A stretch of 23,451 bases of DNA from a virus: IMG/VR virus record IMGVR_UViG_3300023313_000029, positions 1 to 23,451 of that record. One strand, given 5' to 3'. Under the pieces are notes generated by a model. It was not told the origin of the DNA, made no database searches, and saw only the letters and a program-made list of their open reading frames with translations. Below, one piece after another: positions 252 through 18,800 of the stretch (positions are counted from its first letter, which is position 1; the number at the start of each line of letters is the position of its first letter). Both the position numbers and the translations under genes were made by a program.

Positions 252-998
252 ATGGCTACGAAACCCAAAACTAAGACCAAGGCAAAGCCTAAAGCTAAGT
301 TATCTGATAGAGTTCAGCGCAGAAAGGTTAGAGAGACAAATTCTAAGGGTACTAAGGAAGAAGAAGAAAAGAAAGCTCAGAGACTATCAGACTTACTTAC
401 AGGTCAAGAGGCTAATAAGCCAGAGTATACGACATACGTCAATCCATATAACGATTCTATTGTTCTAGCTGATATATTGATACCAATTCGCCTAGACGAA
501 ACATACATTTTATTTGATGAAGATTTTGAATCAGAAATGATCCTCAAATACGATTTTAGTTATTTACCTTATACATACCAAATTTTATTAGGTGCTATAT
601 TAAAACGAACGAATCAAGTACCGTTTGTATTTCATCCTGATGTTATTGGCTCTTTGATGAAAGAAAAAGAAAATTCTAATTACTATAAGAAAACAGATAA
701 AGAAATAGAAACAGTCTATCGCAGAGAGTCAACCAAGAGTATTCGCAGAACAGAAGAATACAAACAGATGCAAAAAGATGTTGACCTTAATGATAACGCT
801 ATAAGAACAAAACGAAGTCTTGCTGTCAAAAACTTAGTCAATCTAGGATATGACAGATTAATGGTTCGTGACAAGATTGCTAAGATGATTGAAGAATGCG
901 GATCAGGTTTACTTGGTTTAACGCCAACACGCATAGCTGAAATTGTTGATGAAGAATTACAGAAAGATTTTAAAAACAGAAAACAAATGGTTAGATAG
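252..998 (+). CDS. unknown lysine-rich protein; weak candidate for small terminase subunit
   Basis: This is a 248-residue protein I do not recognise. The ATG follows a strong AAGGAGAG ribosome binding site. The first 50 residues are a basic, probably disordered stretch rich in Lys, Thr and Ala (about residues 4-16), then Glu/Lys-rich sequence. A mixed middle part (about 55-130) is followed by an alpha-helical, highly charged C-terminal half. The part from about residue 195 to 240 could hold a helix-turn-helix-like fold, but that is a guess. It is the first gene after the repeats at 47-106 and lies about 2.2 kb before the large terminase gene. Position, basic N-terminus and helical C-terminus would fit a small terminase subunit, but no family motif proves it. 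A regulatory DNA-binding protein is an equal alternative. Confidence 0.75.
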   Translation: MATKPKTKTKAKPKAKLSDRVQRRKVRETNSKGTKEEEEKKAQRLSDLLTGQEANKPEYTTYVNPYNDSIVLADILIPIRLDETYILFDEDFESEMILKYDFSYLPYTYQILLGAILKRTNQVPFVFHPDVIGSLMKEKENSNYYKKTDKEIETVYRRESTKSIRRTEEYKQMQKDVDLNDNAIRTKRSLAVKNLVNLGYDRLMVRDKIAKMIEECGSGLLGLTPTRIAEIVDEELQKDFKNRKQMVR

Positions 999-2122: not shown

Positions 2123-2885
2123 TGTGGTAGTTCATTATCACGGTACGCCTATTTGGGGAAATAAAGGAGAAGTCCATCAACACGCAGTTAGTAAAGCTGG
2201 TGCATTTGTTTCTTATGCCAGACCAGACCAGATGAAACAAAGCTTAAAGTATGCTAATAGTGTAGCTATAGATAATGGCGCGTTTAGTGCTTGGAAACGC
2301 GGATTAAAGATTAATTGGGTTGATTTTTATACGTGGTTAATGCACTTTTATTTCCACCCAAAGATGGATTTTTTTATTATTCCTGATGATATAGAGGGTA
2401 GCGAAGAAGTTAATAACAATTTGATAAACTCTGTTCCAACAATGTTTAAAGAAAAGTCTGTACCTGTATGGCATTTACACGAATCTCTTGATAAGCTTGA
2501 TTGGTTATGTAGTAGCTTTGATCGTATTGCTCTTGGATCGAGTGGTGATTATGCAACTATCCGTACTAAAGCATGGCATGGTCGTATGATTGAAGCTTTT
2601 GTATTGATAAAAGAACAGAATTACAAAACCAAAATTCATGGTCTAAGAATGTTAGATGGGCGCATATTAGGTAATTATCCGTTAACTAGTGCTGATAGTA
2701 CCAACCTAGCGTGTAATATTCCAAAGTATAAAGTTAAATATCCTAAAATTGGTAGTCATATTTTAGAGAGAATTCCATTCACACAAGAAGATAAAAATGA
2801 ATTATTGTTACATAGATGTGCTTGCTTGAAAGGAGCTATAGAAAGTGTTTTACCACCAACTTTGATTGAGTGGAATGTATCATAA
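2109..2885 (+). CDS. dpdA: DpdA/TGT-like 7-deazaguanine DNA transglycosylase
   Basis: This 258-residue protein resembles phage DpdA proteins, relatives of tRNA-guanine transglycosylase (TGT) that swap guanine in DNA for a 7-deazaguanine such as preQ0. Seen in the sequence: a barrel-like strand/helix pattern with AIDNGAFSAW (Asp55, where TGT has its DSGGFQ motif), FFIIPDDIEG (90-97), WHLHES (121-126), IALGSSG (140-146, like the TGT glycine-rich base pocket) and LTSADSTNL (Asp196, where TGT has its nucleophilic Asp). The full TGT zinc site is not obvious; only a C-terminal CxC is present. The ATG at 2109 is preferred to an upstream TTG because AGGGAA lies 12 bases before it and the overlap with the previous gene is then short. 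No preQ0 synthesis genes are in the window, so the base must come from the host or from genes elsewhere. The subfamily and the exact base are not determined. The assignment is from remembered motif patterns. Confidence 0.6.
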   Translation: MNNSNVVVHYHGTPIWGNKGEVHQHAVSKAGAFVSYARPDQMKQSLKYANSVAIDNGAFSAWKRGLKINWVDFYTWLMHFYFHPKMDFFIIPDDIEGSEEVNNNLINSVPTMFKEKSVPVWHLHESLDKLDWLCSSFDRIALGSSGDYATIRTKAWHGRMIEAFVLIKEQNYKTKIHGLRMLDGRILGNYPLTSADSTNLACNIPKYKVKYPKIGSHILERIPFTQEDKNELLLHRCACLKGAIESVLPPTLIEWNVS

Positions 2886-2911
2886 TCAATTGTTTTGATT
2901 ATGATACATTC
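2873..2911 (+). terminator. 17-bp perfect hairpin at the end of the DpdA-like gene
   Basis: GAATGTATCATAATCAA (2873-2889) and its exact reverse complement (2895-2911) flank a 5-base loop, TTGTT. The stem includes the last codons and stop of the DpdA-like gene. There is no T-run after it, so it is not a classical intrinsic terminator, although so stable a stem could still stop transcription or protect an mRNA end. Its right arm runs into the first TTCTAAG motif of the neighbouring array, so it may instead belong to that DNA element. Confidence 0.5.
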
Positions 2912-3192
2912 TAAGCTCCACATAACCCTCTCTAAGCTCTTAAAATCTAAAAGTAATACCCTAGGTAGGGTTTAAGATTTTAACGCCTTAGAATCGCTTG
3001 TACGAACTCTAATCGGTATATAATAGATACAAGCAATTAAACATATATAACATTCTATCATACCAAATAACAACTCATATATCCATTCTAAGCTCCACAT
3101 AACCACTTCTAAGGCGTTAAAACCTTTAAAAGGTACAAACACCTTATGGATATATTTTAAGCCCTTAGAATGGCAACCACACGCTTAGAATA
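2907..3192. repeat. duplicated two-fold-symmetric TTCTAAG array; candidate packaging (cos/pac) site
   Basis: TTCTAAG or its complement occurs six times, with one near copy: + at 2909, 2930 (CTCTAAG), 3086 and 3107; - at 2987, 3164 and 3184. Neighbouring copies are spaced 20-21 bp, two helical turns. Four carry an extension TTCTAAG-N3-TTAAAA, arranged as two facing pairs (2930-2945 with 2978-2993; 3107-3122 with 3155-3170). 2978-2993 is the exact reverse complement of 3107-3122. A 21-bp identical direct repeat starts at 2907 and at 3084, and the whole module repeats every 177 bp. An inner palindrome ACCCTA-GG-TAGGGT lies at 2958-2971. The array fills the gene-free gap 2886-3207 before the large terminase gene. 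Phased protein binding is likely; a cos/pac role is inferred from position. Confidence 0.7.
2996..3024 (+). promoter_or_regulatory. possible promoter for the packaging and structural operon
   Basis: A perfect TATAAT lies at 3019-3024, between the two array modules. The best -35 options are weak (GCTTGT 2996-3001 at 17-bp spacing, or TTGTAC 2998-3003 at 15 bp). GCTTGTA (2996-3002) and TACAAGC (3028-3034) form an inverted repeat around it that could be an operator. If it is active, transcripts would pass through the second module and start the large terminase operon. Confidence 0.35.
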
Positions 3193-3207
3193 CAAACAAG
3201 GAGGTCT

Positions 3208-4956
3208 ATGTCATTTCATAAAAAAATCAAGAATATAGACCTAGAAGAATACAACCATAATATACAAGAATATGATCAGTCATGGCAATCATGTGATCAG
3301 TACGCATATAACGTATTAACAGAAAAAATAATAACAAATAAACACGTTAAAATGACTTGTGCTAGGTATATTTATGATAGAACTCGACAAGATTTAGAAT
3401 TCAGAACAGAAGAAATAACCCAAGCAATAAAATTCACTAATTTACTAAAACACATCAAAGGTCCAATTTCAGGACAACCAATGCTATTGCAACAATGGCA
3501 AATATTTATTATTGGTAATTTATTAGGATTTTATTTTGTAGCTGGTGATAGAAATGGTGAAAGACGTTTCAATAAAGCGCTATGTTTAGTTGCCCGTGGT
3601 AATTCAAAAACTACATTATCTGCGGTGTTGTCATTATTATTTATGACAAACAGCCCAAACGGTAGCCCAAGTGTATTTTCAGCAGCAAGAACAAGGTCAC
3701 AAGCAGCCCTATCATTCCAAGATACTAAAAAAATGATAGCTGGTGCTGATTTTAGCCTGAGTTCATTATTTAATATACAAGCGCATGAAATTCATGGTGT
3801 TGTTAATGATAGTTTATTCAGACCATTAGCATCCGAAGCACAATCAGTTGATGGTTTACGTTCAGCACTGAATGTTGTTGATGAATTAGCAAGCCACCAT
3901 AACGGTGAAATGCTGTCAACCTTAATTACAGGCACATCAGCAACCAAAGATCCACTTACATTCTGTATATCAACTGCTGGTATTCAATTAGATGGTGTTT
4001 GTATACACGAAAGAAATCTATGCAGAGATATTAATGCTGGTATTGAAATTGAAGATTCACAATTTGGTATTGAATATTGTATTGATGAAGAAGATGAATG
4101 GGATGATGAAACTCATTGGTGTAAAGCCAATCCATCATTAGGTCATGCAGTTAACATTAATAGTTTACGTTCAGAATTAGCCAGAGCCAGACAAACATCA
4201 GTTAACAAAACATCATTCAAAACAAAATACTTAAATGTATTCGTAAACACAAATGACTCACCATTTTTAGATATTGAAGATACTCAAAAATGTGCTAAGT
4301 CATTAGATATTAGGGATTATTTTGGTAGAGAATGCAGTTTAGGATTAGATTTAGCACAACGGTTTGATTTAGCCTCACTCGCATTATTATTCCCAGAAGA
4401 TGATGGTTCAATGACAGTATTTTTAAGGAATTATTGTGCAAGAGGCGCAATGAAAAAACTAACAGCCGCGAAATATGAGATGTATAACCAGTGGGAAGAA
4501 GATGGTTGTTTAATTGTGACTAATGGAAACTCTACTGATTTTGAATACATTAAAGATGATATTCGTTTTGCTGCCAAAAATTTTAACTTAAAAATGTGCG
4601 GTTATGATCCGTATGCTGGCAGCCAATTAGCCATTGACCTTGAATCTGAGGGCATTGAAATGGTTGAAGTCAGACAAGGTTATGCACAACTATCAGAACC
4701 AGCAAAATTACTACAAACTTTAGTATCAGATGAAAAATTTAACTATGACGAAACAGATAAATGTTTTGAATGGTGTGTTTCTAATTCATCAACCACAGAA
4801 GATAAAAATGGAAACATAAAAGTTCATAAATCTATTGATAAACCACACGATAAAGTTGATGCAGTTGTAGCCATAATTACAGGCTTAAATCCTGAATCAC
4901 TTAGAACCCCAAAAACCAAAGATCCTTACCATGAGCGCGGTATGATAACAATATAG
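3208..4956 (+). CDS. terL: terminase large subunit (TerL)
   Basis: This 582-residue protein is the phage DNA-packaging motor: an ATPase that pumps DNA through the portal and a nuclease that cuts the concatemer. The N-terminal ATPase has a Walker A variant ARGNSKTT (residues 129-136) and a Walker B LNVVDE (221-226, with Asp225 and Glu226). The C-terminal RNase H-like nuclease shows acidic residues at Asp381 (in GLDLAQRFDLAS), Asp467 (in GYDPYAG) and Asp551 (in HDKVDAVV), as expected for metal binding. Length and motif order match the HK97-type TerL family. The AAGGAGG ribosome binding site ends only three bases before the ATG, unusually close. It is the first gene after the TTCTAAG array and nine bases before the portal gene, so the two are probably co-transcribed. 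Confidence 0.95.
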   Translation: MSFHKKIKNIDLEEYNHNIQEYDQSWQSCDQYAYNVLTEKIITNKHVKMTCARYIYDRTRQDLEFRTEEITQAIKFTNLLKHIKGPISGQPMLLQQWQIFIIGNLLGFYFVAGDRNGERRFNKALCLVARGNSKTTLSAVLSLLFMTNSPNGSPSVFSAARTRSQAALSFQDTKKMIAGADFSLSSLFNIQAHEIHGVVNDSLFRPLASEAQSVDGLRSALNVVDELASHHNGEMLSTLITGTSATKDPLTFCISTAGIQLDGVCIHERNLCRDINAGIEIEDSQFGIEYCIDEEDEWDDETHWCKANPSLGHAVNINSLRSELARARQTSVNKTSFKTKYLNVFVNTNDSPFLDIEDTQKCAKSLDIRDYFGRECSLGLDLAQRFDLASLALLFPEDDGSMTVFLRNYCARGAMKKLTAAKYEMYNQWEEDGCLIVTNGNSTDFEYIKDDIRFAAKNFNLKMCGYDPYAGSQLAIDLESEGIEMVEVRQGYAQLSEPAKLLQTLVSDEKFNYDETDKCFEWCVSNSSTTEDKNGNIKVHKSIDKPHDKVDAVVAIITGLNPESLRTPKTKDPYHERGMITI

Positions 4957-15824: not shown

Positions 15825-18800
15825 TGGGATTAGAAGTATCCACGATTGCATATATAGCAACAGCAATATCAGTATCAACAACAGTATACACTTTAATACA
15901 AGCATCCAATCAAGAAGAAGTCGGATCAAAAGTTCAAAAGCGTGGTGTAGATGCACCTCGAAAGGTTCCTTATGGTCGATCTATTGTTGATACTGTAAAT
16001 GTTTATAACAATGTATCAAATTGGCAAGCTGTATCTTTACTTAAAATATTTTCTATTGGTGTTGGTGAAATAAACGCCATTAAACAAGTATGGGTTGATG
16101 ATTTAGCATTACTTCAAAATCATAACACAATTAATCCAAATACAAATCCAACGTATAGAATGCTTAGAGATAACGGTGATTTTGTACCAGCATTCAAAAA
16201 ACAACACATTGGTATGCAATTCAGATACGGACAAGCAAACGAAAACGCTTCTGAATATGCTATTGCATTTGGTGATGGTGAATGGACTACCTCACATAGA
16301 GGCGATAGAGTACCACACATTGCATTAGTAGTTAATAAATCAACTGATGCTGACACTCCAATTTTATCACCATCATATACACTTACAGCTTTAGTTGAGG
16401 GTGTACTTGTTCATGATCCTCGCTTTCATGCTGTTGGAGTTAAAGAATACGAGCATTCGAATAATGCTGTGCCATTACAAAACAGATCATGTGGTCGTAA
16501 CCCTGCTATTTGTTTATTAGACTTTCTAACTGATACTTATTATGGTATGGGAATTAGCTCTACTTACTTAAATGAACAATCATTTATGGATGCAGCTAAT
16601 TGGACTGATAGTAACGGCATATTCTGTGATGGCGCTGTAGATACAGGTGAAAGTTACGGTGATTGTATATCACAAATAATGTCTGCCTTTCAGGGTATTC
16701 TCGTTATTGAAAACGGATTAATCACTTGTAAATATGAAGATGTTGTATTAGTACCATATGCAACAACTTTCGATGAAGATAACATCATCGAAATTAAAAA
16801 CATTCAGAATTCAACAGAAAATAAATATTATAACATTGTTGAAACAAAATATAAAAATTCTATTATGTCTGAAAAGGGTGATGTTTATCAATTACCACAA
16901 GACATTAATTATATTCCTGTTGGTCAAACTAAATCCAGAATAGAAAAAGACGGATTTAAAAAAACTAAAAAACTTGAAATGCCAATGACGGTAGATAACT
17001 CAAGTGGTACTGTAACAGGTGCAGTAAAATTATTCACAAACAGATTATACATAAAGGCGTTATATCAAAAAGGTGTAACGATTGCTATTGATCTAAAACA
17101 AGATCCAGTTAAAGTTTATGATGTTATTAAAATATCAAATAAATTGTTAAATTGGACTAATAAATTATTTAGAATTAAATCAATAAATAAATCAGTTGAT
17201 AACGATAGCTTCAATGTCGGAGAGCTTAATTGTGAAGAATATAATGCAGAGGTTTATTCAGGCAGTTTAGATGGGCTAACGGGGCGCAATAGGGCAAGAA
17301 TAGAGCAAGTATTGCTTGATATGACCAACCTTACCTTTAACTTAGATAACTTCGTTACAGATGGTTATGGCACACTGTCATGGACTGATCCTAACCCATT
17401 AAATGCTACAAAGTACGTTATTGAGTATAAACTATCATCAGAAATCAATTGGGTTGTTTATACAGATGTAAGAATACCAACAGCTAAAATTACTGGTCTT
17501 AAATTAGATACTTATGATTTTAGAGTACAAGCTAAAAAGTTACACTGGTACGATTCTGATTATACTGAATTACTAAATCAAACAGTATCACCAACAGTTA
17601 CTTTACCTAATGTGACTAATTTATCTGTTGATGATCAAGGTATGAACTTTGTATTCTCTTGGGATGATATGTCAAGTGTTGTTGTTATTAATCCACCTGA
17701 TCCTACTGATCCAGATTCAAGCGGCACAACAGGTAAAGTCTCTGATTATTTTAAATATTATGAAGTAAAAATATATCATAATAATGTGTTTAAAAAAACA
17801 TATAAAACAATGGATAATATATTTCATTATTTATTTGAGCATAATGTTGCTAATACCTTATCAAGAGACATTAAAGCCGAAGTATCCATAGTTGCTCAGG
17901 ATGGTTCTAAATCATTATTACCAACGGCTTTATCTGGTCATAATAATCAAATGGGATTACCAGCTAATATTTCAATTAATGTATTATTAGGATTAGCTAA
18001 CATATCATGGTCTCCAAATACAAATGAAGATTTTAGTGGTACAGAAATTCACATTTCATCATCCCCTGCATTTACTCCAAGTTTAACTACCTTAGCTGAT
18101 ACATTACAAGCAGAATCAACTTGGCAGTATTTATATCCAACAAATGATATAACTGATAAATACATCAGAATAGGACATTTCGATAAGTTCAGTACAACAG
18201 GTATAGTTTACTCACCATCTTCATTAATAAGCACAACCAAAGGATTTCCTGTAAATGATGGCATAGATGGGTTGGATGGTTCATTCACATCTGCTATTTA
18301 TTTAAACTCACCAACACAACCAAACACCCCTACAGGTGGATCGTATAATGGAACAGCAGAAACATTTCCTTTGGGTGGATGGGCTGATGATCCAACATCA
18401 CCAACAGGATCAGATTTTATATGGGTATCAAGAACAAAATACTCGGTAGATGCTAATGGTGTTTGGACTAATTCTGGTTGGTCGATAGCTGCAAAATTCT
18501 CAGGTGATGATGGTTATACGCCAATCAAGGGTGTTGATTACACTGATAGTGATTATACTTCATTCTTATACGTAAACTCACCAACACAACCAAACACACC
18601 CACAGGTGGATCGTATAATGGAACAGCAGAAACATTTCCTACAGGTGGTTGGGCTGATAACCCTACCTATGCTGCTGGTCAAATTACTTGGGTAACTGTT
18701 ACTAGATATAAACAACAATCAGATTTATCTTGGGTTGGTAGTCCGTGGTCAACACCATCTAAATTTTATGAAGTTGGAAATAGAGGAAGTGTAAACTTTT

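Follow-up and report, generated by a model that had tools for sequence, protein, structure and literature searches.

What is the function of a dense array of TTCTAAG repeats that stands directly before a terminase gene? The question is raised by the 23.5-kb virus record IMGVR_UViG_3300023313_000029, which belongs to an HK97-type phage. The whole stretch of 23,451 nucleotides was analysed and is called the window here. The gap of 322 bp between the ORF at 2109-2885 and terL (3208) is filled by the array. A sequence-only reading had described it as the probable binding site of a multimeric protein, with a cos/pac recognition element as a fitting role. The array was found to be a recurrent non-coding phage element present twice in tandem; the element is intergenic, independent of orientation and not specific to terL. 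There is good reason to regard it as a cis element working at the DNA level and not as a pac or cos site.

Architecture of the array and the genes around it

The module is present twice in window 2903-3196, and its copies are offset by 177 bp. It is built of site a (TTCTAAG), 14 nt, site b (YTCTAAG), 50 nt and site c (CTTAGAA), to which a site d is sometimes added. All seven of the TTCTAAG-type sites reported earlier before terL could be located (Table 1), and the spacing within the pairs is 21, 21 and 20. The repetition at 177 bp was also borne out: it takes the form of a 45-nt direct repeat, in which the identical 21-nt stretch is CATTCTAAGCTCCACATAACC. Several inverted pairs accompany it, and 2978-2993 is indeed the exact reverse complement of 3107-3122. 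The proposed arrangement as two facing pairs holds for module copy 2 but not for copy 1, in which three sites are seen and a d site is not clearly discernible.

Exact TTCTAAG occurs ten times in the window against an expectation of 3.8 +/- 1.9, a number reached by none of 100 shuffles, and six of these ten sites fall in 2909-3190. Direct TTCTAAG pairs at a gap of 10-16 nt were observed twice, with 0.00 expected. An array of such fixed geometry supports the earlier suggestion of a site that a multimeric protein may bind.

Table 1. Coordinates of the array and of the neighbouring features in the window
Feature	Position	Strand	Details
Candidate small terminase	252-998	+	42% identity to the ORF abutting terL in L001; homologue in L034
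Perfect 17-bp inverted repeat, 5-nt loop	2873-2911	.	Covers the stop codon of ORF 2109-2885, extends into site a1
Module copy 1	2903-2995	+	Three sites (a1/b1/c1); R1 71.2 bits, but a training sequence
Site a1	2909-2915		TTCTAAG
Site b1	2930-2936		CTCTAAG
b1/c1 imperfect inverted repeat, potential bulged hairpin	2931-2992	.	Apical ACCCTAGGTAGGGT; 82% complementary; inner fold z -1.9
Site c1	2987-2993		Reverse, CTTAGAA
Module copy 2	3080-3196	+	Four sites, two facing pairs; R1 72.5 bits, but a training sequence
Site a2	3086-3092
Site b2	3107-3113
b2/c2 imperfect inverted repeat, potential bulged hairpin	3107-3170	.	88% complementary; inner part alone z -1.2
Site c2	3164-3170		Reverse
Site d2	3184-3190		Reverse
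terL	3208-4956	+	phrog_9 and Pfam TerL_ATPase/TerL_nuclease; starts 12 bp past module copy 2

The array is preceded by the ORF at 2109-2885, for which phrog_887 (queuine tRNA-ribosyltransferase) was matched at E 4e-80; the product of this ORF may take part in a 7-deazaguanine modification of DNA. The product of the 252-998 gene is a plausible candidate for the small terminase, as it is homologous both to the ORF that abuts terL in the relative L001 and to an ORF upstream in the relative L034. The family libraries searched gave no match to it, and its predicted structure (mean pLDDT 47) is too poor to use. In the window and in L034, additional genes and the array stand between this gene, or its homologue, and terL. 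Upstream of the 252-998 gene, at 38-89, lie two 22-nt ATAACAGAATATAATTCTGTTT-like copies at 30 bp, which are operator-like. Further along the window, at 18303-18666, a direct repeat of 94 nt, with 90% identity between copies that lie 270 bp apart, represents an internal duplication of a 1633-aa ORF.

Recurrence of the module in phages and plasmids

IMG/VR was scanned with the permissive pattern TTCTAAG-N(10-18)-TTCTAAG-N(30-60)-CTTAGAA, which allows 9 x 31 geometries, and 107 stretches matched. Of the matches, 88 represent a single marine phage coding sequence (GSK..SSKELKRDLL..LFLE) and were discarded as a coding artefact, the codons being explained by amino-acid conservation together with the search pattern itself. 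This marine phage gene (most of the loci L013-L118) shares the 21/85 geometry in coding DNA; it is a matter of ascertainment, yet the coincidence in spacing is odd.

Eight independent non-coding lineages were recognised, namely L034/L096, L038/L058, L053, L070/L099, L078, L083, L119 and the window, their independence being decided by eye from sequence and context. In all of them, the a-b distance is exactly 21 and the span is 84-87. If the geometry were free, that of the window would be expected for 1.4% of matches; it was seen in 8 of about 15 independent ones (binomial p 1e-11). Later scans added L120, L124, L151, L155 and others. On alignment of thirteen modules, the 7-mers proved invariant or nearly so, while the remainder has diverged. 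ATC precedes site a in most of the copies where it had not been selected for. Genomes often hold two copies, which are dispersed. The a-b spacers within one genome are similar (the window; L034; L038 vs L206; both L151 copies), and this suggests either duplication inside the genome or adaptation to one factor.

One scan pattern matched 15 viral stretches, and a near-identical version of it matched only five in 257 Gb of genome sequence from bacteria and archaea. These genome-contig matches (L125-L129) were rejected as chance, being simple TTCTAAG-type repeats or coding. Judged from these counts, the module would be restricted to phages, perhaps also to plasmids. A blast search of the window gap against phages returned weak matches only, the best being Goslar (E 0.03) and Streptococcus satellite phages (E 0.3), and a search with a 39-mer consensus likewise returned weak matches only.

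A covariance model of the module (R1), the E-values of which are rough, was also applied to sequences outside its training. It matched the Enterococcus plasmid L161 with 57 bits and an E of 1.3e-10 in 622 kb; the effective E is nearer 1e-6, because 7.3 Gb had been searched to retrieve the plasmid. Two further Enterococcus plasmids were matched, and second copies were detected in contigs G019, G027 and, weakly, G005. In Bohxovirus sp., a crAss-like phage, a copy lies at 89078-89170 (E 1.4e-7, independent of the match by which the record was fetched), and a second one lies at 96300-96391, near tRNA-Cys (L236 1884-1972). For two Melvirus genomes (Zobellviridae), the match was weaker, with E 2.6e-4 in one and 5.5e-4 in the other, and fell in the same gap of both. 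By these model matches, the module extends to the crAss-like Bohxovirus and an Enterococcus plasmid, and probably to the Zobellviridae.

Two groups of matches were left out of the members: the T5-like ones (Sugarlandvirus, Eos), which are weak (E 0.19-0.26), and those in small E. coli plasmids, which have only an a-like half and a terminator after rep. In L125/genome G029, a Clostridiales MAG, 34 R1 matches were obtained at E <= 0.1, several of which are the two strands of one place. These dispersed TTCTAAG/CTTAGAA-type palindromes of the chromosome are probably a separate repeat family.

Placement of the copies and the question of packaging

Positions relative to ORFs were assigned for 24 copies, 22 of which are clear of any ORF of at least 80 aa. 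Their orientation relative to the flanking genes is mixed, both orientations being seen, and the neighbours are unrelated (terL, terS, capsid, tail, lysis and recA/dnaB). Where the genes were named by eye from their translations, the L070 copy lies between capsid and connector genes, that of L155 among tail genes, that of L156 by lysis-type genes and that of L083 upstream of TerS/TerL-like genes. The copies in L142 and L119 stand at convergent gene ends. A comparison of protein families over the module-bearing contigs revealed none common across the lineages beyond head/packaging and methyltransferase-type ones.

A packaging site, at which the small terminase would recognise the module to begin packaging, is suggested by the position directly before terL in the window and L034/L096, and by the L083 copy. 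The TerL of the window is about 51-52% identical to those of the Vibrio phages henriette 12B8, 2.058.O and V6Aob, 59% to that of L001 and 70% to that of L034. The last of these is the nearest relative with the module and carries two tandem copies before terL. In L001, a TerS-like gene abuts terL with no gap and the module is missing; it is also absent from the complete genomes of the henriette-type Vibrio phages, the nearest isolates with the same TerL type, and R1 found no module in either. Conservation of the motif among close relatives is, therefore, partial: it extends to L034/L096 but not to L001 and the henriette group. The proposed tie to terL fails in other phages too, most of which carry the module away from packaging genes. 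No consistent association with the terminase is seen, the contexts being capsid, tail, lysis-type, recA/dnaB and convergent. Tandem cos sites are expected to be unstable, the DNA between them being lost, and two such sites 177 bp apart should, therefore, lose the intervening DNA. As the copies adjoin unrelated genes and relatives of the same TerL type lack the module, a cos/pac role is unsupported. With the instability of tandem sites added, packaging becomes the least likely of the explanations and a very improbable one; the array is probably not a packaging start. In L034, a tRNA gene (1106-1178; undetermined anticodon, Rfam tRNA 48 bits) was noticed between the two modules.

The same placement data bear on regulation of the adjacent genes. 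Direct and inverted sites at helical spacing are what an operator or enhancer array for a transcription factor would display; the copies of the window, L034, L120 and L155 are near gene starts, and the a-b spacers are alike within a genome. Such control is nevertheless unlikely, given that the copies in L142 and L119 lie at convergent gene ends, the adjoining genes are unrelated, no regulator is common to the carriers and no promoter excess was found near the array.

Dispersal of the module

The core of module copy 2 is found elsewhere only in the IMG/VR contig 3300023313_000142, where it occurs twice, on opposite strands. These copies fill the recA-dnaB gap and another gap of ~120 bp, with other early genes nearby. 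The contig is probably of the same broad clade as the henriette-type phages, since its T7-like RNA polymerase (31%) and DnaB (45%) are related to theirs. In henriette itself (L218 854-1480), an endonuclease-like ORF lies between recA and dnaB, where L160 has a module copy; the slot seems to be favoured by mobile DNA. A ribonucleotide-reductase-like ORF of 1136 aa in L160 (7262-10672) appears to hold an intein-like insertion.

It could be proposed that the module is a non-autonomous mobile unit of the MITE or REPIN kind, in which a transposase or recombinase recognises the sites as ends and the copies have been inserted in intergenic slots. The copies are dispersed on both strands, and 3300023313_000142 has two near-identical cores filling short gaps. 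Relatives without the element differ at the gaps, with no gap before terL in L001 and the endonuclease-like ORF in the henriette slot instead. The four-site symmetry that would correspond to terminal inverted repeats is confined to window copy 2, L120 and the second L151 copy. However, the length is fixed at 84-87 bp although the inner sequences bear no relation to one another, and insertion alone would not keep it so. Neither a target duplication nor an empty/occupied pair was found, and a search for relatives of the L155 and L156 flanks yielded no empty sites. Further, no transposase is common to the carriers. A mobile unit is, on this evidence, somewhat unlikely.

Folding and the choice between DNA and RNA

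Compared with dinucleotide shuffles, the inner regions fold better overall (Fisher p = 2e-6). Those of L038, L053, L119 and L124 fold no better than shuffles, and the hairpin potential is thus not universal. The folding energy of whole modules lies below that of shuffles in many cases (z -2 to -7), and compensatory b/c change is seen in L155 and in G027 copy 2. The folding energy of whole modules could point to a structured RNA signal, that is, an mRNA hairpin for processing, stability or attenuation. The copies of L034, L120 and L195 start a few nt from a stop codon, and a palindrome folds whichever way it points.

What is conserved, nevertheless, is the repeated 7-mers, including site a, which has no pairing partner, and not the loops; moreover, a-b is retained in copies where c has been lost, and the orientation is mixed. 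An Rfam search of the window stretch (E up to 5) and of eight carrier loci gave no element family, but only unrelated tRNA and tmRNA. An RNA signal is, for these reasons, quite unlikely. The mixed orientation, the conservation of the unpartnered site a and the retention of a-b without c favour a reading in which the module is recognised as double-stranded DNA and, as a second property, can often form a hairpin.

A proposed mode of action

The element would thus act at the DNA level. Sites a and b, which are two helical turns apart, may be bound cooperatively by an oligomeric protein. The same protein could also contact the inverted sites c and d, which lie about 50 nt off, by looping the DNA; alternatively, c and d could pair with b and a upon extrusion of the element as a bulged hairpin. 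For a signal that is restricted to phages (perhaps plasmids) and placed independently of any gene, a single-strand-initiation-like or attC-like site would be a likelier use than packaging, and the likeliest one. It is tentatively suggested from these patterns that the module is a place where DNA synthesis is initiated, or recombination occurs, on single strands that have folded. As the carriers have no common protein family across lineages, the module is more likely to be read by a host factor or by a phage protein that changes rapidly.

The module may, equally tentatively, stand for an undescribed class of cis DNA elements, present in unrelated phages, the Crassvirales among them, and in some small plasmids but absent from chromosomes. 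Such elements would be read by a conserved host factor or act as an initiation or recombination hairpin, independently of any phage protein family. Recurrence of an element of fixed geometry across phage families that have no gene in common would mean that a single DNA signal engages the same host machinery in phages that differ greatly, and perhaps in plasmids. The module could then help to locate origins of replication or hot spots of recombination in phages that have not been cultured.

Comparison with known systems

The recognition arrays of cos/pac are helically spaced repeats that precede a terminase gene. The window repeats are likewise helically spaced and lie before such a gene; the module differs in that it is duplicated, occurs at scattered places and for the most part does not adjoin terminase genes.

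Another point of comparison is the attC site of integrons, which consists of a 7-bp box stem, a short internal loop, a second stem and a variable apical part. Like the module, it is an imperfect inverted repeat of about 60-110 nt, and a bulged hairpin of this type (box stem, internal loop, second stem) is seen in many module copies, though not in all. The boxes are different: the module alignment has CTTAGAA / TTCTAAG where attC has the cores GTTRRRY (R') and RYYYAAC (R''), and L155 alone has GTTAGAC. The module also has a second direct copy of the box 21 bp upstream, and no integron integrase was seen near the module copies.

Similarly, the single-strand origins (sso) of rolling-circle plasmids are bulged hairpins in intergenic DNA, and in the Enterococcus plasmid match the b-c hairpin encloses an RSB-like ATGCCGAC, as in such origins (PMC5703833, PMC6395029). 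RSB and CS-6 were sought in window 2881-3210 and were not found there, the plasmid copy being the only one to agree in this respect. An sso works in one orientation only, whereas the module occurs in both, as judged relative to genes and not to the direction of replication (PMC5703833, PMC6395029). Since other plasmids with an RSB-like hairpin are mostly without TTCTAAG, the link to single-strand origins may be coincidental. In the Enterococcus gallinarum plasmid pEG81-2 (L166 570-749), the GTTCTAAGGCGTTTTA box is the point at which the plasmid hairpin has been broken and rejoined, a rearrangement that would fit recombination at this box.

The open-access literature, to which the search was limited (subscription papers lay outside it), contained no description of the motif or element that could be found, and its novelty is provisional. 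The nearest described phage repeats found are the SAS/ESAS of Cluster K mycobacteriophages, which are dispersed non-coding repeats, as is the present element; no function is known for the ESAS, which are inverted repeats of imperfect symmetry (PMC3203893). The SAS/ESAS are 17-bp repeats with spacers of 4-13 bp, found in one cluster only and mostly in one orientation before gene starts (PMC3203893). The present element, in contrast, is found in unrelated phages, has a 50-nt spacer and follows no orientation rule; its copies do not share the habit of lying upstream of gene starts in mostly one orientation.
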